Positions 3,480 through 52,327 of a stretch of 53,367 bases of DNA are shown piece after piece (position 1 is the stretch's first letter; every line of letters begins with the position of its first letter). Source of the DNA: Gemmatimonadota bacterium (GTDB lineage Bacteria; Gemmatimonadota; Gemmatimonadetes; Gemmatimonadales; GWC2-71-9). The notes under the pieces were generated by a model, which made no database searches, had not been told where the DNA came from, and saw nothing but the letters and a program-made list of their open reading frames with translations. The translations under genes and the position numbers were made by a program. The stretch spans positions 1-53,367 of the forward strand of contig QHUU01000066.1 of assembly GCA_003222155.1 (NCBI GenBank), read 5' to 3'.

Positions 3480-4403
3480 TCAGGCGGAAGCGGTCGCCCG
3501 CTCCACCTGCTCCCACGCGTGGTAGCTCGAGCGGACCAGCGGTCCCGCCTCCACGTGGCGATACCCCATCTCGAGGCCGAGACGGCGCAGCTCGGCGAAT
3601 TCGTCGGGGGCGTAATAGCGAGCGATCGGCAAGTGGTCGCTCGAAGGCCGCAGGTATTGCCCCAGGGTCAGGATGTCCACGCCCTGCGCGCGCACGTCGC
3701 GCATCGCGGCCAGCAGCTCGTCCCACTCCTCACCAAGGCCGCACATGATGCCGGACTTGGTCAGCATGCCGGGGTCGAGCTGCTTGGCCCGGCGCAGCAG
3801 CTCGAGCGCCCGGACGTAGCGGCCTCCGGGGCGCGCCAGACGATACAGTCGGTCGATCGTCTCCAAATTGTGATTGAGAATGTCGGGTTGGGCCTGGACC
3901 ACGATGCGCAGCGCCTGCCCGCTCCCCTTGAAATCGGGGATCAGCACCTCGACCGACGTGTCCGGCGCCCGCCGCCGGATCTCGGTGATCGCGGCCGCGA
4001 AGATCTCGGCGCCGCCGTTCGCCAGATCGTCGCGGTCGACCGAGGTGATCACGACGTGCCGGAGCCCCATGCGCTCCACGGCGGCGGCGAGCCGGAGCGG
4101 CTCATCCTCGTCCAGGGCCGTGGGCGTGCCGTGCGCGACCGCGCAATACGCACAGTTACGGGTACACACGTCGCCCAGGATCATGAACGTGGCGGCGCGG
4201 TGCTCCCAGCACTCGCCGATGTTGGGGCAGTGGGCTTCCTCGCAGACCGTATGGAGCTCGTGGTCGCGCATGAGCTGTTTCAGGGCGACGTAATTGGGCC
4301 CGCCGGGAGCGGGGACCTTGAGCCACGGCGGCTTGCGGTCGATCTGAGCGTGGGGATGAGTGGGACGCGGGCGCTGCAGTTGGACGAGGGGAGGGCTTGC
4401 CAT
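3480..4403 (-). CDS. lipA: Lipoyl synthase
   Basis: Radical-SAM enzyme that inserts two sulfurs into protein-bound octanoyl groups to make lipoyl cofactors. 307 residues from the ATG at 4403. The auxiliary 4Fe-4S ligands are C54, C59 and C65 (CEEAHCPNIGEC), the radical-SAM cysteines are C80, C84 and C87 (CTRNCAYC), and the C-terminal RSSYHA supplies the conserved Arg-Ser-Ser-Tyr. The frame stays open a further 63 codons upstream, but that stretch does not resemble LipA. It is the first gene of the lipA-pdhABC-lpd unit. Confidence 0.96.
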   Translation of the reverse strand: MASPPLVQLQRPRPTHPHAQIDRKPPWLKVPAPGGPNYVALKQLMRDHELHTVCEEAHCPNIGECWEHRAATFMILGDVCTRNCAYCAVAHGTPTALDEDEPLRLAAAVERMGLRHVVITSVDRDDLANGGAEIFAAAITEIRRRAPDTSVEVLIPDFKGSGQALRIVVQAQPDILNHNLETIDRLYRLARPGGRYVRALELLRRAKQLDPGMLTKSGIMCGLGEEWDELLAAMRDVRAQGVDILTLGQYLRPSSDHLPIARYYAPDEFAELRRLGLEMGYRHVEAGPLVRSSYHAWEQVERATASA

Positions 4404-4460
4404 AACTAGCCACAAAATAGCGAGTTCGCGGGGGGTCTGGTAGCCGCGCCGGTGAAAATT

Positions 4461-4474
4461 CAACCGTGCGGTTG
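4461..4474. promoter_or_regulatory. Operator-like palindrome upstream of lipA
   Basis: Perfect inverted repeat CAACCG-TG-CGGTTG in the 97-bp gap upstream of lipA, about 60 bp from its start codon. The position suits a repressor site for the lipA-pdh unit. No convincing -35/-10 pair was found, so the role is a guess. Confidence 0.25.
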
Positions 4475-4500
4475 ATCCATTGTGGTCGATCCGGGTGCCC

Positions 4501-4923
4501 CTACGGACTCGCCACTGGTCGTCGTCGGAGAATTTTGCGCCCGAGCGCCTGGAGCGCCTCGGCGGTTGCGGCGCCCGCGACGGTCGCCGCAAAGTCGAGC
4601 GGCCCGAAGCCGTATCCCGGCCTGCCGGCCTTGCCTTCGCGCCGGGCCTGCAGAGCGTCGAGCATCTCCCAGCTCGCGGCGACGGTGGCCGTCACGAGCA
4701 CGCGCTTGCAGGCATGGTCGTGGAACCCCTTGGCCACCCAGGGCCCCCGCGCCAACAGATCGAGCCCGACGCCAGCCGCGAAGTGGATCCGTTTGTCCGG
4801 ACAGGTGACGCACGCGTCGGGGTCCAGCCACTGTGCCGGCGCGCGCGCCGCGGCGACCGAGAGCGCCAGCACGACCATCCAAACCGGGGCGCTCGCGCGC
4901 CACGGCCTCGTGGGGGGATCCAT
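4501..4923 (-). CDS. Exported YfiM-like protein of unknown function
   Basis: 140 residues. The N-terminus looks like a signal peptide or membrane anchor (WMVVLALSVAAARAPAQ, about residues 15-31). The mature part contains CVTCPDKRIHFAAGVGLDLL, then AASWEMLDALQARREGK and GYGFGPLDFAATVAGA. The spacing of DKxxHF, a WE(M/L)xD-like helix and a G-rich DF segment resembles the YfiM/DUF2279 group of small envelope proteins. That assignment is tentative. It is co-directional with the zinc-ribbon gene upstream, with 91 bp between them. Confidence 0.55.
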   Translation of the reverse strand: MDPPTRPWRASAPVWMVVLALSVAAARAPAQWLDPDACVTCPDKRIHFAAGVGLDLLARGPWVAKGFHDHACKRVLVTATVAASWEMLDALQARREGKAGRPGYGFGPLDFAATVAGAATAEALQALGRKILRRRPVASP

Positions 4924-5014: not shown

Positions 5015-6016
5015 TCACCGTTCCTTCCTCTTGTCGAGCCGTTCTCTCAGGCGGCGCAGCTCCTCGTCGATCCCCGGGTCCGCGCTGAGCATGCCGTCGG
5101 CGATGTCGGCGATCTCTTCGGCCTCTTGCCACTGACGCTCCAACTCTTCCATCTCGGCACGCTCGTCGACCGCCATCTCCAGGGCGAGCCGCCGGTCCGG
5201 GGCGAGGCTCCGCAAGGTGAGCTCGCGGCGGGCGACATCGTGGATCAACTGGTGAGGGCCGCCCGCTCCCTCGACCAGACGCGCTGCGTCCTCGGCGCGC
5301 TGCCGGCCACCGCGCGCCAGGTTGAGGTAGGTCAGGCCGCGCCGCAGCGCAAACTGCGCGTCGCTGCCCGTGAGCATCGTCCCCTCGGCTCCGCAGCTCG
5401 GACACGTGAGCAGCAGCGCCATGCCGTCGCGCGCCGTCGTGGTGACGCGCGCGCGCTCCAGATGGCGCGCGCGCAAGAGCATCACGCTGCCGCACCGCTC
5501 GCAGATCGGCGGCTCGACGAACGCGATCTTGCGGCGTCCGACCATCTCGACGTAGATGCGCTTGACGAGCCGGGGAGTGTTCCACACGAAGACGCCCACG
5601 GAGCCGCCCGCCGCGACGTTGACCGCCACGGCGAGCCCCACCGCCGCGACCGTCATGGGCACGACGAACTTGAGCTGCTCCTGGCGCCGCGCCCGCAGCC
5701 GTTCGCCGTAGCGCCACGCGGCCAGCTCGAGGCGCCGAGGCTTGCCGACGCGTACGAGGTCGTAGCCGTGCCAGCGGATCAGTGCGACCTGGTCGGTCGC
5801 GGCCGCCACCCGGCCGTCGGTCGCGGCCCGCGCCAGCGCCTCGATCCGCTCCAGGCGGTCGTCGAGCGGTGCCAGGTTCCAGCGTGAGCACCTGGGACAG
5901 ATCACCCACAGCCGCCCCTTCCACTCGTCGAACGCGAGCCGCCGTCCCACTCCGAGGCCCGAGGGGCCGCCGTCACCGTCGAGCTTGCCGTTGCAGAAGG
6001 CGCAGGTGCGATACAT
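5015..6016 (-). CDS. Zinc-ribbon membrane protein of unknown function
   Basis: 333 residues from the ATG at 6016. Four CxxC pairs suggest two zinc ribbons: CAFC near residue 5, CPRC near 40, CERC near 170 and CPSC near 205. A hydrophobic segment (VVPMTVAAVGLAVAVNVAAG, about residue 120) predicts one membrane span. The C-terminal third is charged and helical (ERQWQEAEEIADIAD...RLRERLDKRKER), probably a coiled coil. No known family is recognised. The start codon abuts a four-unit heptamer array that also contains the stop of the upstream thiO, leaving no Shine-Dalgarno sequence. Confidence 0.7.
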   Translation of the reverse strand: MYRTCAFCNGKLDGDGGPSGLGVGRRLAFDEWKGRLWVICPRCSRWNLAPLDDRLERIEALARAATDGRVAAATDQVALIRWHGYDLVRVGKPRRLELAAWRYGERLRARRQEQLKFVVPMTVAAVGLAVAVNVAAGGSVGVFVWNTPRLVKRIYVEMVGRRKIAFVEPPICERCGSVMLLRARHLERARVTTTARDGMALLLTCPSCGAEGTMLTGSDAQFALRRGLTYLNLARGGRQRAEDAARLVEGAGGPHQLIHDVARRELTLRSLAPDRRLALEMAVDERAEMEELERQWQEAEEIADIADGMLSADPGIDEELRRLRERLDKRKER

Positions 6017-6044
6017 CGGGACTCGGGACTCGGGACTCGGGACT
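6017..6044. repeat. Heptamer array between thiO and the zinc-ribbon gene
   Basis: Four perfect CGGGACT units, then a degenerate AGGGGCTCGGGG to 6056. The array fills the whole junction: the TAG stop of thiO (complement of 6043-6045) lies at one end and the ATG of the next gene directly abuts the other. Single orientation; no inverted partner seen nearby. Confidence 0.9.
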
Positions 6045-7155
6045 AGGGGCTCGGGGTGACGGTGAAGCGGTCGACACCGAGCGGTCCGATCTCGACGTCG
6101 GTCGCGCCCTTGGTGACGAGATCGGCGATGATCTCTCCTGTGAGCGCCGCGAGGAGGATTCCGTTCCGGCCGTGGCCAGTAGCGTACCAGAGCCGGTCCA
6201 CCTCCGGATCGCGCCCCAGGATCGGCCGGCCGTCGGGAGTGGCAGGTCGGAGGCCGGCCCAGACGCGCTGCACCGGTTGGGTGAGCAACGCAGGGAGCAG
6301 GCGTACCGCGCCGCGGAAGACTTGGGCGAGGCCCTCGTTCGTGACGTGCGGGTCGTATCCGGCGCGCTCCATGGTGCTGCCCAGCACCGCCACGCCGCCG
6401 CGCGCGAGCACGTAGCCCTGGTCGTGATAGAGGATGGAAGGGGGGCAACCGTCGGGCCAGGCGGTGGCCGCCATTTGACCACGCAACGGCTCGACGGGAA
6501 GGGCGCGGGGAAGGCCGCGGATCTGCGGGGACCACACACCCGCCGCGAGCACGGCGTGCTCCACGGTGGTGGTGCCTCCCGCCGCCACCACGCCGGTGAC
6601 CCGGCCCGCCGCCACCTGGATCGACTCCACCGGCTCGGCGTGGAGCGCGGCGCCGAGGCGGCGCGCGTCCGCGAGGCAGGCGCGGGTGAGCGCTTGGGGG
6701 TCGAGCGCCCCGTCCTCCGGCGCGAACAGCGCCCCTTGGCACTCGGGGGCGGCGCCGGGCCAGCGTTCGCGCACGTCGTCCGCCTCCAGCCAATCGCACC
6801 GCAGGCCCGCCTGGCGCTGCCGAGCGACCTCGTCCTTGAGGCGCACGGCGTCCGCCTCGTCGAACGCGACCGCGGCGATCCCGGAGCGCCAGAAGCCGAT
6901 GTCGATGCCGGTGGTCTCCCGCAGCGCCGGGGCGAGGGGCTCGTACAGGTCGCGCGCCCGCACCGACAGGGCGACCAGCGAGTCGTCGGCAGGCTCGATT
7001 TGGGGGGCGAGCATGCCGGCCGAGGCGGGGGACGCGGCGGCCGGGTCGGGGCCCGGCTCGAAGATGGCGACGGCGAGGCCGCGCAGGGCCGCCGCCCGGG
7101 CGCAGGCGGCCCCGATGGCCCCGCCGCCGATGATGGCCACGTCCGCGGTGTTCAC
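6043..7155 (-). CDS. thiO: Glycine oxidase ThiO-type FAD-dependent oxidoreductase
   Basis: 370 residues with an N-terminal GGGAIGAACARAAALRG dinucleotide-binding motif, SPASAGMLAPQ (the DAO-family segment contacting the isoalloxazine), QALTRACLADARRLGA, and the C-terminal GLRPATPDGRPILGRDP...YATGHGRNGILLA typical of ThiO/DAO proteins. ThiO oxidises glycine to iminoglycine for the thiamine thiazole ring. No other thi genes are present, so a different amine substrate is possible. GTG start at 7155; the gene ends inside a heptamer array. Confidence 0.82.
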   Translation of the reverse strand: MNTADVAIIGGGAIGAACARAAALRGLAVAIFEPGPDPAAASPASAGMLAPQIEPADDSLVALSVRARDLYEPLAPALRETTGIDIGFWRSGIAAVAFDEADAVRLKDEVARQRQAGLRCDWLEADDVRERWPGAAPECQGALFAPEDGALDPQALTRACLADARRLGAALHAEPVESIQVAAGRVTGVVAAGGTTTVEHAVLAAGVWSPQIRGLPRALPVEPLRGQMAATAWPDGCPPSILYHDQGYVLARGGVAVLGSTMERAGYDPHVTNEGLAQVFRGAVRLLPALLTQPVQRVWAGLRPATPDGRPILGRDPEVDRLWYATGHGRNGILLAALTGEIIADLVTKGATDVEIGPLGVDRFTVTPSP

Positions 7156-30387: not shown

Positions 30388-31179
30388 TTAGCGGCGCCAG
30401 GTCCAGGCGGGGTCGGAAAAAACGGCGGCAGAGGGCGGCAGAGGGCGGCAAGGGGCGGCAGGGATGACATCATCGCTCCACTCCTGCACGACTGCTTCGA
30501 CGACTTCGTCCCACGTCACACGTCGTCTCAACTCCTCCGAAAGCGTGGTTGCCGCACTTCCGGCTCGCGGCTCGCGGCTGACGCCAGGCATCGCGTCTTG
30601 CGACCCGTCCAGCAGAATCGATCCGTGTTGCAGGAACGCCCTACCGCGGCGCACTTGGGCGGAGCCGACGAGCTTCCGCCCACCGACGAGGACTTCCCCG
30701 CCGACTGAGCAGGCGAAGCAGCCGGAGAGCGCGGCGGTAGCGGGCGGTAGCGGGCGGTTGGGGGCCAGAGTCGGGGACACGCCCAGCGCGCCGAGCCCGG
30801 CCGCCAAGCGCGCATGGATCGTGTGGTACGCTCGGCGCAGGCCGCCGAACGCCGCGATCGGGGCGGCGACGGCGTAGGTCAACTCGTGCTGGTGCCACAC
30901 GGCGCCACCTCCCGTCGGCCGTCGCACGACGTCGATGCCGAGCCGCGCGATGGCCGCGCGGTCATAGCCCCCCGATGCTTCGTTGCGGCCGACCGAGAGG
31001 CACGGCGGGTCGAACCGGTAGAGCCGCAGGAACGCCTCGCCTATCCGGTCGGCGCGCTCCAGGAGTGCCACGTCGACGGCCATGTTCTCGGGGCCCGAGC
31101 GCCCGCGCGGCTCGAGCAGCAGCTGCCACCGAACGGCGGTCCGGCGCCCAGGCGACGGACCGCTATCAGTCAGCAGCAA
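30388..31179 (-). CDS. Lipoate/octanoate protein transferase (LipM/LplA family)
   Basis: 263 residues with the biotin/lipoate ligase fold: [19 protein letters not shown], then a cysteine segment [27 protein letters not shown] and [10 protein letters not shown]. The Cys-containing strand before GRKLVGSAQ is a feature of LipM-type octanoyltransferases, which load GcvH or E2 for LipA; a lipoate ligase is the alternative. The TTG at 31179 has GGAGAG 8 bases upstream and overlaps the end of gcvP, but an ATG at 31083 is possible. Two decamer arrays inside the gene encode repeated RPLPP peptides. Confidence 0.75.
30424..30463. repeat. Decamer tandem array, 3' end of the lipoyl-transferase gene
   Basis: Four units of a 10-bp repeat, GGGCGGCAGA-like (GGCGGCA at intervals of exactly 10). 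On the coding strand it encodes CRPLPPSAA near the C-terminus. It is in the same orientation as the array at 30731-30765. Confidence 0.8.
30731..30765. repeat. Decamer tandem array, middle of the lipoyl-transferase gene
   Basis: Three units of GGGCGGTAGC-like 10-mers, one base-type different from the array at 30424-30463. It encodes [10 protein letters not shown] just before the SGCFACS cysteine strand. Confidence 0.75.
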
Positions 31180-36223: not shown

Positions 36224-36303
36224 AACGCGGAACGCGGAAGTCGGAACGCGGAACAGAGCGGGGAATGCACCCGTTCCGCGTTCCGCGTTCCGCGTTCCGC
36301 GTT
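36224..36303. repeat. Inverted heptamer-array element between tdk and coaE
   Basis: 80 bp from AACGC to GCGTT. The left arm is made of CGGAACG, CGGAAGT, CGGAACG and CGGAACA units, with a spacer of about 15 bp and a right arm of four inverted CGTTCCG units. The right end supplies the first base of the complement of the tdk TGA stop, and the left end is 2 bp from the coaE ATG. It thus occupies the entire junction between the two genes. Confidence 0.9.
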
Positions 36304-38834: not shown

Positions 38835-40127
38835 CTACCGCTCCCGGTCGAGCCGCGCGATCACCCGGCGCCCGCAGATCGTGACGCCCGTGAGCCCCCG
38901 CACTGCCCGATCCGCCGCCCCGGCCGCCACCTCGACCAGGCTGAATGTCTCACGCACGTCGATTCGGCCGATATCGTCCTTCGGCACGCCGGCTTCGCGA
39001 ATCAAGGCGCCGACGAGGTCCTTCGCGCTCGCGCGGTCCTTCTTTCCCAGGCCGACGAAGACCTTCACACGCGCGCCCTCGCTGGGCCCGGCAATGACCG
39101 CATCCCGCATCGCGCTTCCCGTTTCCCGTTGCAGCGCCAGCAACGCCGCCGCCACCTCCGCCGGATCGAACCGCTCGAACAAGGGATCCAGCAGGGCGAG
39201 CTCCTGGTCCACACCGTTCTCGAGCACGCGAGCCACGCGCTCGCGCAACTCCTCGGCGCGATCGCGTGCGCGGTCGGCCGTGCCGGGGAGGGCGAGCGGT
39301 GCCAGCGTCGCGACGGAGCGCAGGTACGGGAGCTGACCCGCGCTGAGGAAGACCACCGGCTCAGCCAGCTGGATCAGCGCCGCGAGCTCTTCGCGCGACG
39401 GCAGGGCGGTGCAGAGCACGGCGTCGGGCCGCGCCTCCGGCACGGGAATGGGACCGCCGTGCCAGATGACGGGCTCGCGGGCGTCCAAGGCGTCGAGCAC
39501 GTCCCGAACGACGGCCTGTCGCCGGCCGGGAGCGACGACGCAGTAGCGGGCCCGCCCCACGGGAGGGAGCTGGGCGCCGCTCTCGTCCACGGGCAGCGCC
39601 CCGACCACGAGCGGGCGGCGGGCATGTCGCTCGAGAAAATCGGCCAACAGTGCGGGATGCCAGCTGAGCACCAGGCGGCGAGCTTCGCGTGCCTCGCCCA
39701 ACAGTGTGTCGAGCGCGGCGGCATGCTCCCCCGCGATGAGCGCCTCGGGCCACGCCACCACGAGCGAGGTCACCTGGTCGAGCTTCAGCGCGGCGCGCTG
39801 GACCAGCGCGGTCAGATCCTTCACGGCCGCGGCGAGAACCTGGGGCGGGCGCTCCTTGAGACTGCGTGCGCTGCGGGCCAGGCCGGTGACGGCGTGGACG
39901 CGGAGCCCGGCGGGGGCGAGAGCGGGCCACGCAGCCGCGGCCGCGTCGTCCGCACACACGATGAGCACGGGTGGGCCCGCCCCGGGGCCACGCCCGGGAA
40001 TCGGATCCAACAGCTCCCACAAGTGCTGCGCGCTCTCCGCGGCCGGGGGACACACCAGCACCACCCCCCTGCCGCGCTCCAGCGCGGTCCTCGCATCCGC
40101 TCCCGTCACACCGTCCTCGGTTGTCAA
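38835..40127 (-). CDS. Catalytically degraded DEAD-box protein with DbpA RNA-binding domain
   Basis: About 430 residues from a TTG at 40127 (a GTG at 40109 is also possible). The C-terminal 75 residues (RVKVFVGLGKKDRASAKDLVGAL...GVTICGRRVIARL) are a DbpA-type RNA-binding domain. The preceding part follows the DEAD-box helicase layout, but motif I (AxTGSGKT) is CPPAAESA, DEAD is AWPE (SLVVAWPEALIAG) and SAT is SWH (VLSWHPALLADF), so ATPase activity is unlikely. It may be an RNA or ribosome-assembly binding protein. A heptamer array lies in the linker before the RNA-binding domain (RETGSAMRD). Confidence 0.75.
   Translation of the reverse strand: MTTEDGVTGADARTALERGRGVVLVCPPAAESAQHLWELLDPIPGRGPGAGPPVLIVCADDAAAAAWPALAPAGLRVHAVTGLARSARSLKERPPQVLAAAVKDLTALVQRAALKLDQVTSLVVAWPEALIAGEHAAALDTLLGEAREARRLVLSWHPALLADFLERHARRPLVVGALPVDESGAQLPPVGRARYCVVAPGRRQAVVRDVLDALDAREPVIWHGGPIPVPEARPDAVLCTALPSREELAALIQLAEPVVFLSAGQLPYLRSVATLAPLALPGTADRARDRAEELRERVARVLENGVDQELALLDPLFERFDPAEVAAALLALQRETGSAMRDAVIAGPSEGARVKVFVGLGKKDRASAKDLVGALIREAGVPKDDIGRIDVRETFSLVEVAAGAADRAVRGLTGVTICGRRVIARLDRER
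39100..39127. repeat. Heptamer array in the DbpA-like gene
   Basis: Four 7-mers, GCATCCC, GCATCGC, GCTTCCC and GTTTCCC. It encodes RETGSAMRD in the linker between helicase-like and RNA-binding domains, the same RETG peptide found in the pdhC linker. No inverted partner seen nearby. Confidence 0.8.
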
Positions 40128-41507: not shown

Positions 41508-41522
41508 CGACCTGCCGCTCAA

Positions 41523-41567: not shown

Positions 41568-42803
41568 CTAGAGTTTGGAAGCCCGCTGGCTCAGCACCTC
41601 GACTCCGCTCGCCGTCATCACGCAATCATCTTCTATGCGGACTCCGAACTTCCCGAGCTGATAGATCCCCGGCTCGTCGGTAAACACCATGCCGGGCTCG
41701 AGGCCCAGCGCGTTGCCCTCGACGAGATAGGGCGGCTCGTGTCCGTCCATCCCGAGTCCGTGTCCCAGGCGGTGAGTGAAGAACGGGCCGTAGCCCGCAG
41801 CCGCGATCACCTTGCGGGCGGCGCGATCCATGTCCTGGCACGGCGTGCCGGGTCGTCCCAACTCCATCGCGGCGCTTTGGGCGTCGTGCACCACATTGAA
41901 CACCTTACGGAACTCGGCCGCCGGACTGTCGCCGAACCAGGCGGTGCGGGTGATGTCCGACTCGTAGCCGCGCACCCGGCAGCCGCAATCGATCAGCACC
42001 ACGGTCTCACGCTCGAGCGCCGCCGCGGCGGGGCCACCGTGAGGCAGCGCGCTGGACGGCCCGAACTGCACCAGCCCGCCGCCTTCGGCGCCGCGTTGCT
42101 GCATCTCGCGCGACAGGAGCCGCGCCACGTCGCGCTCCGTCATCCCCACGGCGAGCTGCGCGAACGTCGCCGTCATCGCCGCCTGCGTGATCTCGATCGC
42201 GCGGCGGATCAGGGCGATTTCCTCGGGGGCCTTCACGATGCGGAGCCGCTCGGTCACCGGTGCCGCGTCCACGAACTTCCAGCCGGAGAGCGCCGCCGCG
42301 AGCCGCAGCGACGTCTGGTATCCGGTGGACGACTCGAGCGCAATCGTGCCCGCACGCGGCGCCAGCCGGCGGACGGTGTCGCGCACCAGGGCGTACGGAT
42401 CGCCCTCCTCCTCCCATCCGCGCGCATCCGCAATGACGCCGTGGCGCTTGATCCGTTCGACCTCGAAGGAAGGACACACCACGGCCGGGCCGCCTCGGAG
42501 CGGGACGATCAGCGCGATGAGGCGCTCGCTGCGCCCGGGATTGTAGCCGGTGAGATACTCGTAGTTGGTGCTCGGCGTGGCGATGAGGCAATCGAGCTTG
42601 CGCGCCTCGAGCTCGGCCCGCGCGCGGTCGAGGCGGCGGGCGAAGACTTCCGGTGGCAAGGAGGGCTCCTGCGAGGGGGTAACGCGGAACGCGGAACGCG
42701 GAACGCGGAACGAGACGCTCGGACGCCTGTTCCGCGTTCCGACTTCCGACTTCCGCGTTGCCAGCACCGCCCCTGCTACCGCAAGAAACTCCCGCCGCTC
42801 CAT
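41568..42803 (-). CDS. Tat-exported M24 metallopeptidase (Xaa-Pro aminopeptidase type)
   Basis: 411 residues. The N-terminus MERREFLAVAGAVLA fits a twin-arginine signal. Metal ligands of the pita-bread fold are visible: IDCGCRVRGYESDITRTAW (two Asp), HRLGHGLGMDGHEPP (His), FTDEPGIYQ and GVRIEDDCVM (Glu). A creatinase N-terminal domain precedes it. It would trim N-terminal residues next to proline outside the cytoplasm. Residues 15-41 are encoded by a palindromic heptamer element lying in frame right after the signal region, giving an Arg/Ser/Val-rich insert (GTRNRRPSVSFRVPRSAFRV). Confidence 0.9.
   Translation of the reverse strand: MERREFLAVAGAVLATRKSEVGTRNRRPSVSFRVPRSAFRVTPSQEPSLPPEVFARRLDRARAELEARKLDCLIATPSTNYEYLTGYNPGRSERLIALIVPLRGGPAVVCPSFEVERIKRHGVIADARGWEEEGDPYALVRDTVRRLAPRAGTIALESSTGYQTSLRLAAALSGWKFVDAAPVTERLRIVKAPEEIALIRRAIEITQAAMTATFAQLAVGMTERDVARLLSREMQQRGAEGGGLVQFGPSSALPHGGPAAAALERETVVLIDCGCRVRGYESDITRTAWFGDSPAAEFRKVFNVVHDAQSAAMELGRPGTPCQDMDRAARKVIAAAGYGPFFTHRLGHGLGMDGHEPPYLVEGNALGLEPGMVFTDEPGIYQLGKFGVRIEDDCVMTASGVEVLSQRASKL
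42681..42759. repeat. Inverted heptamer-array element inside the M24 peptidase gene
   Basis: 79 bp from AACGC to GCGTT. The left arm has four CGGAACG units, with a spacer of about 15 bp; the right arm is four inverted units (CGTTCCG, two ACTTCCG-type, GCGTT). It has the same ends as the elements at 148, 36224 and 52206. It is read through in frame with no stop codon. Confidence 0.92.
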
Positions 42804-42868: not shown

Positions 42869-43390
42869 TTGTCGACGCACTTCGAAGCCCGAATCGAGCC
42901 GCTCGACGGCAAGCTTCCCAAGGTCACCTATCACTGGGATCCCGAGACCGACATCCTCTCCGTCGCGTGCAAGGGGACGGGGAAGGCCACGAGTTTCAAC
43001 GGCACCGTGGATCTCGAGGGCAACGACGGCTCGTTCGTGGTGATCGACGTGGCCAGCGGGTGCTTGCGAGGCGTGGACGTGGTCACCTGGCCGGACGACA
43101 TCCGCACCCGCGAGCAGCTCGCAGCCCCCGCCCCGGCCAAGGACGCGCGCGTCGTGTTTCCCCCCCGCAAAGCGCAACCCGCGGTGGCGGCCGTCGAGGT
43201 CGACACGCCGCTCACCGTGGAGAAAAACCAGGCCGAATCGGTGCTGCACATCCGGGTGGGGCGCCAGCGGCCCGCCACCGTGGTGCGCGTGGCGGACCGC
43301 CTGCTCGTCGAAGTCGACAAAAGCTCGCGACTCGCGGGGCTCTGGTTCCTCGACGTGCCGCCGTTTCCGAATGTCGAAGCGACCGCCTAG
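42869..43390 (+). CDS. Protein of unknown function
   Basis: 173 residues from the TTG at 42869 (GGAAGG lies 5-10 bases upstream); a GTG at 42824 would add 15 residues but overlaps the likely promoter. The first half (RIEPLDGKLPKVTYHWDPETDILSVAC, GTVDLEGNDGSFVVIDVASGCLRGVDVVTWP) faintly recalls DUF2283-like folds. The second half (VEVDTPLTVEKNQAESVLHIRVG, VVRVADRLLVEVDKSSRLAGLWFLDVP) looks like a related second beta domain. It is followed after 4 bp by the left array of the four-helix-bundle element. Confidence 0.62.
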   Translation: MSTHFEARIEPLDGKLPKVTYHWDPETDILSVACKGTGKATSFNGTVDLEGNDGSFVVIDVASGCLRGVDVVTWPDDIRTREQLAAPAPAKDARVVFPPRKAQPAVAAVEVDTPLTVEKNQAESVLHIRVGRQRPATVVRVADRLLVEVDKSSRLAGLWFLDVPPFPNVEATA

Positions 43391-43394
43391 CAGC

Positions 43395-43440
43395 GGAGGT
43401 TAGGGGAGGTTGGGGAGGTTGTGGAGGTTGGGGGAGGTTG
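43395..43440. repeat. Left tandem array of the four-helix-bundle element
   Basis: Five copies of a 9-10 bp unit GGAGGTTGG (variants GGAGGTTAG and GGAGGTTGT). It starts 4 bp after the preceding stop codon. The inverted counterpart is at 43868-43908. Confidence 0.9.
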
Positions 43441-43512
43441 ATCGCGGTGTAACGGCCCTCCGTGCGCTAGAATGGTTCCAGCTTCCCCGCCGCGCCGCGT
43501 ACCGTGGAGCGC

Positions 43513-43866
43513 ATGTCGCGGTACGAACGGCTTCACGCCTGGCGGGAATGCCACGAGCTCGCCTTGGCGGTTTACCGGGTCACGAAGCAGTTCCCCAATG
43601 ACGAGCGTTACGGGCTGACCTCGCAACTCCGGCGCGCCGCGTTCTCTGCCGCGGTCAATATCGTCGAGGGATCTGCACGGCGCAGCACCAAAGAATTCCG
43701 CCGGTTCCTCGATATTTCCCTCTCATCGCTGAGCGAGGTCGGATATGCGTTGCGGTTCGCTTGGGAAGCGGGCCTGCTGACCGACGACGATTGGTCCGCC
43801 CTCAACGATCGCCAGAGCCGCGCCCGCTTTCTCACGTGGCAACTGTACCGAGCCCTAGGTCGGTGA
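43513..43866 (+). CDS. Four-helix-bundle protein (S23/IVS family)
   Basis: 117 residues from the ATG at 43513 (GGAG nearby; a GTG nine bases earlier is less likely). It matches the family of four-helix-bundle proteins first seen in 23S rRNA intervening sequences: YERLHAWRECHELALAVYRVT, FPNDERYGLTSQLRRAAFSAAVNIVEGSAR, then EFRRFLDISLSSLSEVGYALRFA. Related small proteins include Avd of diversity-generating retroelements, which binds nucleic acid. No reverse transcriptase is present. Flanking inverted arrays suggest it belongs to a discrete element. Confidence 0.9.
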   Translation: MSRYERLHAWRECHELALAVYRVTKQFPNDERYGLTSQLRRAAFSAAVNIVEGSARRSTKEFRRFLDISLSSLSEVGYALRFAWEAGLLTDDDWSALNDRQSRARFLTWQLYRALGR

Positions 43867-43867
43867 C

Positions 43868-43908
43868 CACCTCCGCCAGCCTCCCAAACCTCCCCCAACC
43901 TCCTCAAC
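43868..43908. repeat. Right tandem array of the four-helix-bundle element
   Basis: About four units of CCAACCTCC type, the reverse complement of the left array, more degenerate (variants CCAGCCTCC and CAAACCTCC). It ends 17 bp before the UbiG-like start codon. Confidence 0.85.
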
Positions 43909-43925
43909 GCCGTAGATTGTCTCTC

Positions 43926-44660
43926 ATGTCCGACCAACTCCCCCGCCTCGGCGGCCTCCCCGAGGCCGAGAAGTACGAGCGTCTGGTCGAGCGCGTACCG
44001 GGGCTGTGGTGGAGCGACGCCGGACCGTTCGCGGGACTGCACGAGTTGAACGTGGTTCGCGTGGAGTACTTCCGCGCCGTGTTCAACGGGTTCGGCGGCA
44101 AGCGGGTGCTCGACGTGGGGTGTGGCGGCGGCATCCTGGCCGAAGCCCTCGCGACCGAAGGCGCGCGAGTGACCGGCATCGATCCGTCGGAGCGCTCCCT
44201 CACAGCGGCGCGCGACCATGCGCAGCGCGCCGGCTTGGCGATCGAATACCGGCCGGGCACGGCCGAAAACCTCAAAGCGGCAGGGCTCGAGGGGTCGTAC
44301 GACCTCGTGTTCGCGGTGGACGTGCTCGAGCACGTGGACGATCTCGATCGCACCCTCGCCGGGGTGGCGGCCGTCCTCGCGCCGGGCGGTGGGCTCGGGT
44401 TCCTCACCCATAACCGCACCATCGCCGGCTTCCTGCAGGTCGTGTGGCACGAGGAATACGTGCAGCACACGATGCCGGAAGGCTTCCACGACTTCCAGCG
44501 CTTCATCACGCCCGCCGAGCTGACGGAAAAGCTCGCGCGCAACGACATGGTCGTACAGGAAATGAAAGGGATCGCGCCGGCCGGTGACGGCACCGGCCGC
44601 CGCATCCTGACCGACGATCTGAGCATCACGTATCTCGGGTGGGCGCTCCGGACTCGATGA
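43926..44660 (+). CDS. UbiG-like SAM-dependent O-methyltransferase
   Basis: 244 residues. Motif I is RVLDVGCGGGILAEALA, motif post-I is VTGIDPSE, and motif II is YDLVFAVDVLEHVDD. VVWHEEYVQHTMPEGFHDFQRFITPAEL fits the UbiG branch, which methylates hydroxyls of ubiquinone intermediates. If the organism uses only menaquinone, another phenolic substrate is likely. The TGA overlaps the ATG of the NurA-like gene, which is unexpected for a metabolic enzyme next to a DNA-repair operon. Confidence 0.82.
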   Translation: MSDQLPRLGGLPEAEKYERLVERVPGLWWSDAGPFAGLHELNVVRVEYFRAVFNGFGGKRVLDVGCGGGILAEALATEGARVTGIDPSERSLTAARDHAQRAGLAIEYRPGTAENLKAAGLEGSYDLVFAVDVLEHVDDLDRTLAGVAAVLAPGGGLGFLTHNRTIAGFLQVVWHEEYVQHTMPEGFHDFQRFITPAELTEKLARNDMVVQEMKGIAPAGDGTGRRILTDDLSITYLGWALRTR

Positions 44661-51255: not shown

Positions 51256-52204
51256 GCGCCAGGTCTACGGGCCGGAGCCCGCCGGGGAGCGGGACACCGA
51301 CGCGCTGAACCGGGTGTTCGCGGACGCGTTCACCGACCGTTACCGCCGCGACGGCCTCGTCGGCGTGCGCGTGCCCCATCTGAATCCGCAGGTGTGGCGG
51401 TACGCGCTGCTCGACGCGGGCGCGGGCGCCATGTTGTGGCGCGACGAGGCGGGGCACGTGGTGGCCTTCAATATCGCGCACCGCTCGGGCACGGAGGGAT
51501 GGATGGGCCCGCTCGCGGTGCGCCCCGACCGCCAGGGGGCGGGGGTCGGCAAGGCGATCGTCCGGGCGGCGGTGGACTGGCTCATCGAGCAGGGCGTCGC
51601 GACGCTGGGGTTGGAGACCATGCCGCGCACCGTCGAGAATATCGGCTTTTACGCCCGGCTCGGGTTCGCGCCGGGTCACCTCACGGTCACGCTGACGAAC
51701 GACATCGCGACCCGCGGCCACGCTGCTCCGGCGCTCCTGTCGCAGCGCAAGGGCGACGCGGGCGGCGCGGCGCTCGCCGCCGCCCGTCGCCTCGTCGGCA
51801 CCCTTTCGCCGGGCTACGACTTCACGCGCGAGATCACGCTCACGGCGGAGCTGGGGCTCGGCGACACGTCGCTGGTGGACGGCGACGACGGGCTGGCGGC
51901 GGTCGTGCTGTGGCACTCGACTCCCCTCGCGGAAGGCCGCCCCAAGGACGAAGTGCGGGTGCTCAAGCTCGCGGCGCGCGACGACCGCGCTTTCGACGCG
52001 TGCATCGCGGCGACCGAGGCCGCAGCCGCGCGCGCGGGCATCCGGCGCGTCGCCGTACGCTGCCAGACGCGCTTCGAAGACACCTTCCGCCGGCTGGTCG
52101 CCCGCGGCTATCGCGTCCGCTGGACCGACCTCCGGATGACCTACGAGGGCTACGGCGAGCCGCCCCCGCGGCGCGGCGTGCTGTTCTCGAATTGGGAGAT
52201 CTAG
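51236..52204 (+). CDS. Double-GNAT acetyltransferase
   Basis: 322 residues; the ATG lies 20 bp inside the end of sbcC with GGGAG upstream. The first GNAT domain has the acetyl-CoA loop in WMGPLAVRPDRQGAGVGKAIVRAAVDWL and the following ENIGFYARLGF. A second, weaker GNAT-like half (ITLTAELGLGDTSLVDGDDGLAAVVLW to RLVARGYRVRWTDLRM) lacks an obvious P-loop and may be structural or bind substrate. Acceptor unknown. Its stop codon shares its G with the first base of the adjoining repeat array. Confidence 0.82.
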   Translation: MRAWLPERQVYGPEPAGERDTDALNRVFADAFTDRYRRDGLVGVRVPHLNPQVWRYALLDAGAGAMLWRDEAGHVVAFNIAHRSGTEGWMGPLAVRPDRQGAGVGKAIVRAAVDWLIEQGVATLGLETMPRTVENIGFYARLGFAPGHLTVTLTNDIATRGHAAPALLSQRKGDAGGAALAAARRLVGTLSPGYDFTREITLTAELGLGDTSLVDGDDGLAAVVLWHSTPLAEGRPKDEVRVLKLAARDDRAFDACIAATEAAAARAGIRRVAVRCQTRFEDTFRRLVARGYRVRWTDLRMTYEGYGEPPPRRGVLFSNWEI

Positions 52205-52205
52205 G

Positions 52206-52324
52206 AACGCGGAACGCGGAAGTCGGAACTCGGAACTGAAAGGGCAGGTTCGATCCCAGATGCCGGCGCTCTGTCTCGACCGTCGCTCGCTCTGTTCCGC
52301 GTTCCGCGTTTCGCGTTCCGCGTT
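52206..52324. repeat. Inverted heptamer-array element between the GNAT and transporter genes
   Basis: 119 bp from AACGC to GCGTT. The left arm (to 52238) has CGGAACG, CGGAAGT, CGGAACT and CGGAACT units. The spacer is about 54 bp with no gene, and the right arm from 52293 has inverted CGTTCCG units including one CGTTTCG. It spans the whole junction: stop codon at one end, and 3 bp before the next ATG at the other. Confidence 0.9.
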
Positions 52325-52327
52325 CGT

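Follow-up and report, generated by a model that had tools for sequence, protein, structure and literature searches.

The window considered here is the whole stretch of DNA that was analysed, 53,367 nucleotides of a genome (G000) that amounts to 3.45 Mb in 130 contigs. At 41568–42803, on the minus strand, it holds the gene of a 411-residue M24 metallopeptidase with a Tat-like N-terminus (MERREF...), the domains of which were recognized by profile search (PF00557, 6.6e-62; PF01321, 1.1e-19). Codons 15–41 of this gene are occupied by a 79-bp hairpin of the GCGG-AAC family (42681–42759, minus strand), which sequence parsing resolves into two 31-nt arms of GGAACGC-type heptamers: given on the plus strand, an arm AAC(GCGGAAC)4 at 42681–42711, a 17-nt loop at 42712–42728, and at 42729–42759 a complementary arm, GTT(CCGCGTT)4-like, in which two heptamers are of an AAG variant. 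Folded as single-stranded DNA, the hairpin has an energy of −35.6 kcal/mol (z −6.5), equalled by 0 of 200 shuffles, and the reading frame of the peptidase crosses it without a stop; counted in codons, the element extends from the last base of codon 15 to codon 41. A preliminary description had proposed a repeat element at this place, read in frame as residues 15–41 of an exported-type M24 peptidase; the arms, the fold and the genome-wide copies all bear out that the element is real, and the in-frame reading holds.

The family is dispersed throughout the genome. With one mismatch allowed, GGAANNCGGAANNCGGAA matches G000 at 169 forward and 172 reverse positions versus 3 and 4 for the reversed control, and the DNA of the M24 element gives 87 matches, counted in both orientations of the palindromes. 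From 41 fetched loci and the window, which do not amount to an exhaustive census, 39 family elements of 67–433 bp (median 90) were parsed. The exact 31-nt 5' arm is present in 26 of these and the 31-nt 3' arm likewise in 26; the loop opens with AG in 29 (the gene-bearing copy at locus L014 included) and has the form AG...CT in 16, and AAG variants are present in most of the arms. Palindromic array pairs number 5 in the window and 0 in each of three Markov controls. Besides the M24 element, the window carries copies at 148–233, at 36224–36303 (intergenic), and at 52204–52325 (intergenic, with a longer loop). Congeners have other units, or no array, at the 36224–36303 site; the copy at 52204–52325, which was missed by the parser that gave the element list, has ATT arms in G007 and is absent in G003. 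A lone CGGGACT heptamer array was also seen at 6016–6056, and no complementary partner was found for it. No target motif was found at the element flanks, where the sole base preference is a C adjoining the arm at 31 of 60 ends. Stop codons abut 23 of the 60 ends (13.5 expected), and 15 ends have an ATG no more than 12 nt away on the outer side (approximately 5 expected), which we read as placement at gene borders.

The M24 gene is not the only coding sequence that contains a family element. Another lies in frame in uvrA (locus L140, 1037–1116), where G007 and G008 have ATT arms, with exact edges in G007; the element is 6 nt longer in both relatives, and the frame is therefore kept. A third in-frame hairpin is found in the gene for L-asparaginase II (L014, 2854–2943). 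A crude test for in-frame elements by GC3 flagged only these last two among the 39; it missed the M24 element because the short N-terminal flank defeats the method, and the three in-frame cases are therefore a lower bound. Arrays were also observed inside other genes of the window. Complementary GGGAAAC-type arrays at 931–961 and 1168–1198, approximately 205 nt apart, bracket a host domain: they lie in the two linkers (residues 175–185 and 96–106) that flank the E3-binding domain in the acyltransferase (E2) of a 2-oxoacid dehydrogenase. A lipoyl-ligase-like gene has three arrays, at 30424–30463, 30561–30579 and 30733–30765 (residues 282–295, 244–250 and 182–192), and the corresponding places in G003, G005, G006 and G008 hold different sequences, often arrays with other units. 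A gene with a DbpA RNA-binding domain has a CCGTTTC-type array at 39098–39130, the unit of which is different in G007 and G006.

Occupancy of the slot among M24 orthologues

The M24 gene was compared in 17 close orthologues from eight genera, namely G000, seven congeners and nine genomes of seven other genera (seven of nine congeners were used, as the other two drafts matched only a distant M24). Each of the 17 has an in-frame segment in the slot, which lies between MERREF... and a conserved ...QEPSLxPEVF... region. The array detector reports a tandem array there in 16, G000 included, and with RNA parameters the slot folds at z ≤ −3.5 in 13; the values are −2.3 for G057 and −2.0 for G047, and G009 and G020 have a linker without a hairpin (z +1.4 and +1.0). 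In six distant M24 proteins (approximately 42% identity) no array was detected, and z ranged from −1.6 to 0.1. The unit within the slot is AAC in G000, G006, G008 and G039, ATT in G007, G003, G024, G053 and G035, AGT in G005 and AAT in G057, with units of 8 or 9 nt in G002, G028, G047 and G049. On a gene tree from which the first 60 residues were left out, at least nine unit changes are needed to account for the 15 labelled rows, and the sister pairs G000/G007, G008/G002 and G057/G035 each have different units. The encoded insert peptide varies with the unit and the frame. We regard it as nearly certain that the sequence at 42681–42759 belongs to a hairpin family and occupies a slot that has been re-used across genera.

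These observations qualify the suggestion that the element had inserted into the gene. The dispersed family and its in-frame reading here agree with it, but none of the 17 close orthologues has an empty slot and no jump is seen; there is therefore no empty orthologue to display the clean 27-residue gap that had been expected. The hoped-for flanking duplication was likewise not found, and no target duplication appeared in six pairwise comparisons, made at empty or degraded rather than clean sites. The evidence demonstrates that an old slot has had its content replaced repeatedly, not that the 42681–42759 copy moved into the gene. It could be argued that the segment is a native low-complexity linker of the peptidase that merely resembles the repeat family, given that every orthologue has a linker at this place and that those of G009 and G020 form no hairpin. 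For the 42681–42759 sequence this is refuted by its DNA-level inverted symmetry and its near-identity to copies elsewhere in G000, and hairpins fold in 13 of the 17 orthologues; we give the explanation almost no credence, although a linker may have been the origin of the M24 slot itself.

Unit switching between related genomes

The change of unit extends well beyond the M24 gene. Forward matches (one mismatch) to GGATTGC and GGAACGC arrays, respectively, number 5 and 98 in G000, 103 and 8 in G007, 18 and 75 in G008, 20 and 43 in G006, 42 and 24 in G003, 15 and 21 in G001, 6 and 0 in G004, 3 and 4 in G002, 0 and 3 in G005, and 0 and 1 in G009; reversed controls gave 0. Individual sites were then compared for 38 G000 elements, those of the window included; the left flanks of 34 elements were located in G007 and G008 and the sequence between the flanks was extracted. 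G007, with flanks approximately 92% identical, could be paired at 33 of 38 sites, which comprise 25 ATT (2 weak), 1 AGT, 1 AAT, 1 AAC, 3 other and 2 empty. A hairpin is thus kept at 28 of 33 comparable sites, and at 27 its unit is unlike that of G000. In G008 (flanks approximately 82%) 31 of 38 sites were paired, and 22 are AAC-type, 5 ATT, 2 empty and 2 other. Given that the near relative differs almost everywhere whereas the farther one mostly agrees, the change at most sites is to be assigned to the branch leading to G007; five sites, however, have ATT or AAT/ATT in both G007 and G008 but not in G000, and the switch has thus also run in the other direction. As the unit is different at some 27 shared sites together, the hairpins have apparently been overwritten genome-wide without moving. 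In 41 of 58 comparisons between species the lengths differ by a multiple of 3, above one third (30 of 47 once identical lengths are excluded), and this was seen to extend to intergenic-looking sites.

One may ask whether such a pattern could arise without traffic between sites, with arrays changing unit in place by mutation, slippage and arm-to-arm copying within a hairpin. The units AAC, AAT, AGT and ATT are indeed one- or two-step neighbours, and mixed arrays exist, such as the AAT/AAC arms at L247 in G008 and the AAG variants of G000. Such drift would nonetheless have had to yield the same new unit at 25 of the 28 array-bearing G007 sites while the flanks changed by only approximately 8%; the loops have changed too, and some species have 8- to 9-mer units. 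We consider it a poor explanation that is improbable on these grounds. With respect to the loops, orthologous pairs between G000 and G008 have a median similarity of 0.63 versus 0.54 for other pairs, with 5 of 13 above the non-orthologous 95th percentile, and those between G000 and G007 have 0.50 versus 0.52, with 1 of 21 above it. The loop of the M24 element is likewise closer to that of G008 (0.65) than to that of G007 (0.46). Among 24 G007 loops, seven are similar to a single 15-nt sequence (five in one orientation, two in the opposite one), but as a shuffled-letter null gives 10% and the same threshold is passed by 3 of 30 G000 loops, two of them at sites among these seven (L116 and L124), a shared G007 loop is suggestive rather than strong.

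The edges of the replaced segments are less tidy than the switch itself. Between G000 and G007 the right edge is exact at 12 of 27 sites and the left at 4, with both within 3 nt at only 7. At L146 in G007, AAC-like heptamers persist beside an AAT hairpin. At L149 and L122 the interior is retained (0.71 and 0.75) and the arms are changed, and the unit of replacement is therefore not uniform. The L122 copy (4400–4729) has its arms 269 nt apart, and these have gone from AAC to ATT in G007 around a conserved interior that may be a small gene. In our reading of these data, hairpins already in place were replaced from a common source, in some cases just their arms, although reinsertion beside or into old copies may have taken place instead. 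Indeed, slots that attract hairpins of this class, lose the old copies by deletion and are refilled in each lineage by its own active family would account for composite and remnant arrays (L146, and an ATT half-array beside an AAT-armed IVP copy in G007), for the empty sites (2 of 33 in G007 and 2 of 31 in G008), and for edges often shifted by a few bases. Recurrent hot-spot insertion of this kind would however demand an extreme site preference, as a different unit would have refilled 27 of 33 sites and only 2 are empty, and this in the face of no target motif, of no duplication in the comparisons made, of several sites with exact shared edges, and of the kept interiors at L149 and L122. We judge it unlikely, if deserving of attention, and lean toward overwriting in trans over independent reinsertion.

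Copies that carry an IVP gene

Adjacent to the peptidase gene the window contains a gene (43504–43866, plus strand) for a four-helix-bundle protein of the 23S-rRNA-IVP family (PF05635, 9.5e-30; TIGR02436, 7.5e-28), the product of which also has a weak match to the Avd model NF033474. It stands within a gene-bearing element, with a left array of unit GGAGGTTGG at 43395–43439 (plus strand) and a right inverted array at 43869–43908 (plus strand); at 43385–43935, G006 has a 146-bp version devoid of the IVP gene. Near 41510 an IVP gene is found in G007, and a gene-less palindrome in G005 and G002. PF05635 (23S_rRNA_IVP) has nine matches in G000 that amount to eight genes, one being in two pieces. 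Six of the eight are flanked by arrays that are inverted or nearly so, and the unit is particular to each gene: GGGCGGCAA, GGAGGTTGG, GACGCCTA, ACGACGCC, a 13-mer (score 13.5, below threshold) and, at L014, GGAACGC. No flanking inverted arrays were found at the remaining two, L015 and L016. The 433 bp of the L014 copy place an S23p/IVP open reading frame (PF05635, 53 bits) between 31-nt GGAACGC arms, and these arms and the AG...CT inner ends are shared with the short elements. We think it probable that the short hairpins derive from IVP elements.

The arms of IVP copies also vary between species. A copy adjacent to obgE has arms of AAC in G000, ATT in G006, AAT in G007 (with the additional ATT half-array noted above), and mixed AAT/AAC in G008. 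The IVP copies of G006 and G007 have arms built from a unit that is not the most frequent one in those genomes, which contradicts the notion that arms are copied solely from a genome's own IVP copy.

The association of IVP genes with such arms is widespread. In a sample of the phylum, IVP genes are present in 159 of 298 genomes, and a flanking inverted repeat (score ≥ 16) was found at 30 of 37 loci (8 from G000 and 29 others), 26 with a tandem arm; random windows gave 9 of 400 and 2 of 400, respectively. Among 77 loci elsewhere, drawn from named genomes of Planctomycetota, Acidobacteria, Alphaproteobacteria, Chloroflexi, Spirochaetes, Bacteroidota and others, an inverted repeat flanks the gene at 46 and a tandem arm is present at 29 of these, with 3 of 144 and 0 of 144 in control windows shifted by 950 bp. 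The 31 of these 77 loci without an inverted flank include all nine partial matches (L328–L336). Our literature search found no link between IVP genes and heptamer arrays beyond the heptamers of the Coxiella paper discussed below.

Relation to known elements and a proposed history

IVS/S23p elements have been known for decades and, to our knowledge, have no function ascribed to them. The accessible text on the 23S rRNA IVS of Coxiella burnetii describes 428 nt with a 28-bp terminal stem, tandem heptamers preceding an S23p open reading frame, and a proposed mobility involving that frame (PMC4990558). As far as that account goes, the elements described here share its reading frame family, terminal inverted repeats able to form a stem (28 bp versus 31-nt arms), a similar size (428 nt versus 433 bp at L014) and heptameric tandem repeats. 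Unlike the rRNA elements, which RNase III excises, they lie in protein-coding and intergenic DNA, have dozens of gene-less copies, have their units replaced from one species to another, and can be read in frame. The gene-bearing L014 copy has what characterizes the IVP/IVS class, a reading frame between terminal inverted repeats and heptamers near the ends. The copy at 42681 has no IVP frame and would belong to the class only as a gene-less derivative; as it lies in the M24 coding sequence, we do not class it with the IVS of rRNA.

In-frame palindromes have a precedent in Rickettsia, where palindromic elements of approximately 150 bp are described in the accessible text as in frame in unrelated protein genes, with a conserved encoded peptide (PMC10969869). 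These are the closest precedent for the in-frame hairpins in M24, UvrA and L-asparaginase II, as compared by description rather than by sequence. Here, however, a different unit brings a different peptide and one slot is used repeatedly, and the accessible part of that source makes no mention of heptamer arrays or an IVP gene. For the arrays themselves, the consulted portion of PMC4692102 records GGGAATC heptamers in Xanthomonas and GGGGA(C/T)T in Nostoc, with 70 and 75 inverted GGGAATC pairs in two Xanthomonas genomes, mostly intergenic and 90% between the same open reading frames in both. That paper interprets the heptamers as G-quadruplex repeats that in general have no association with mobile elements. 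The Xanthomonas arrays look like the same sort of array as ours; the unit switch seen here has no counterpart in that portion.

XCC0516 is a protein of Xanthomonas campestris. It is a solved relative of IVP, as cited in PMC10053308, the available text of which also makes IVP a relative of the diversity-generating retroelement (DGR) protein Avd. The term xcc0516 does not occur in PMC4692102, and therefore no link of the GGGAATC arrays to an IVP gene was found there. The weak NF033474 match likewise makes IVP an Avd relative, but in contrast to DGRs the RVT_1 reverse transcriptase (PF00078) is found in 0 of 4 genomes (by a profile search in which 3 of 14 controls scored).

Short hairpins of high copy number also recall REP/RAYT elements and MITEs, and mobilization by a Y1 transposase merits consideration for palindromes that lie mostly at gene borders. 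Y1_Tnp (PF01797) is indeed present in two of four genomes, once in G000 and four times in G007. No match was obtained in G006 and G008, however, both of which are rich in copies, and on inspection the arm ends are AACGC/GCGTT, with no GTAG or CGTC tag (the REP tag as given in the accessible part of PMC3733652). No target duplication was seen here either. With no consistent Y1 partner and no tag, we hold a REP/RAYT-like element to be very improbable.

It is reasonable to postulate a history along the following lines. The short hairpin would be the gene-less form of an element whose gene-bearing form has an IVP/S23p four-helix-bundle gene between the same inverted heptamer arms, and the tolerant M24 slot, between signal and catalytic domain, would have been occupied by hairpins since before the compared genera split. 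Wherever in the genome a hairpin already stands, an older copy with one unit would be overwritten by copies with another, and for this reason positions would stay fixed while sequence turns over. Single strands of one hairpin might anneal to the arms of another copy, at the replication fork or in the repair of a hairpin-induced break, and within coding slots selection would retain only replacements of compatible length. The IVP protein, as a relative of the DGR accessory protein Avd, could conceivably assist, but we are doubtful that it has a direct role. The evidence for overwriting consists of differences between species, neither movement nor overwriting being observed directly. Several points speak against it: the often inexact edges and the remnant heptamers of L146, both of which also fit insertion beside old copies followed by deletion; array pairs that can bracket host sequence, as in the E2 linkers at 931–1198; and IVP copies whose arms are not the prevailing unit (G006 and G007) or whose loci outside the phylum sample have no inverted flank (31 of 77). 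On balance, we judge the complete account, in which a gene-less IVP/IVS derivative occupies a re-used slot and sibling hairpins overwrite it in trans, to have slightly the better of even chances.

The finding thus reaches beyond one insertion, to a refilled slot within a family that switches unit genome-wide between sister species and is tied to IVP genes. To judge from sequence, this class has the anatomy of the Coxiella IVS outside rRNA, and a chromosomal multi-copy form with gene-less derivatives, together with IVP genes set between arms in many phyla, would render the suggested mobility of the IVS testable. A near-complete switch of unit at fixed sites between sister species is unlike the product of ordinary transposition or drift, and the in-frame copies in UvrA, L-asparaginase II and M24 indicate that segments of proteins are rewritten too. 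As a tentative view, which we put at somewhat below an even chance, dispersed IVP-type hairpins may form one population in which a new unit sweeps the existing copies in trans and in place, in either orientation and inside coding genes as well, as a genome-wide rewriting system without RVT_1 or a consistent transposase, of which the intervening sequences of rRNA would be the long-known outlier.
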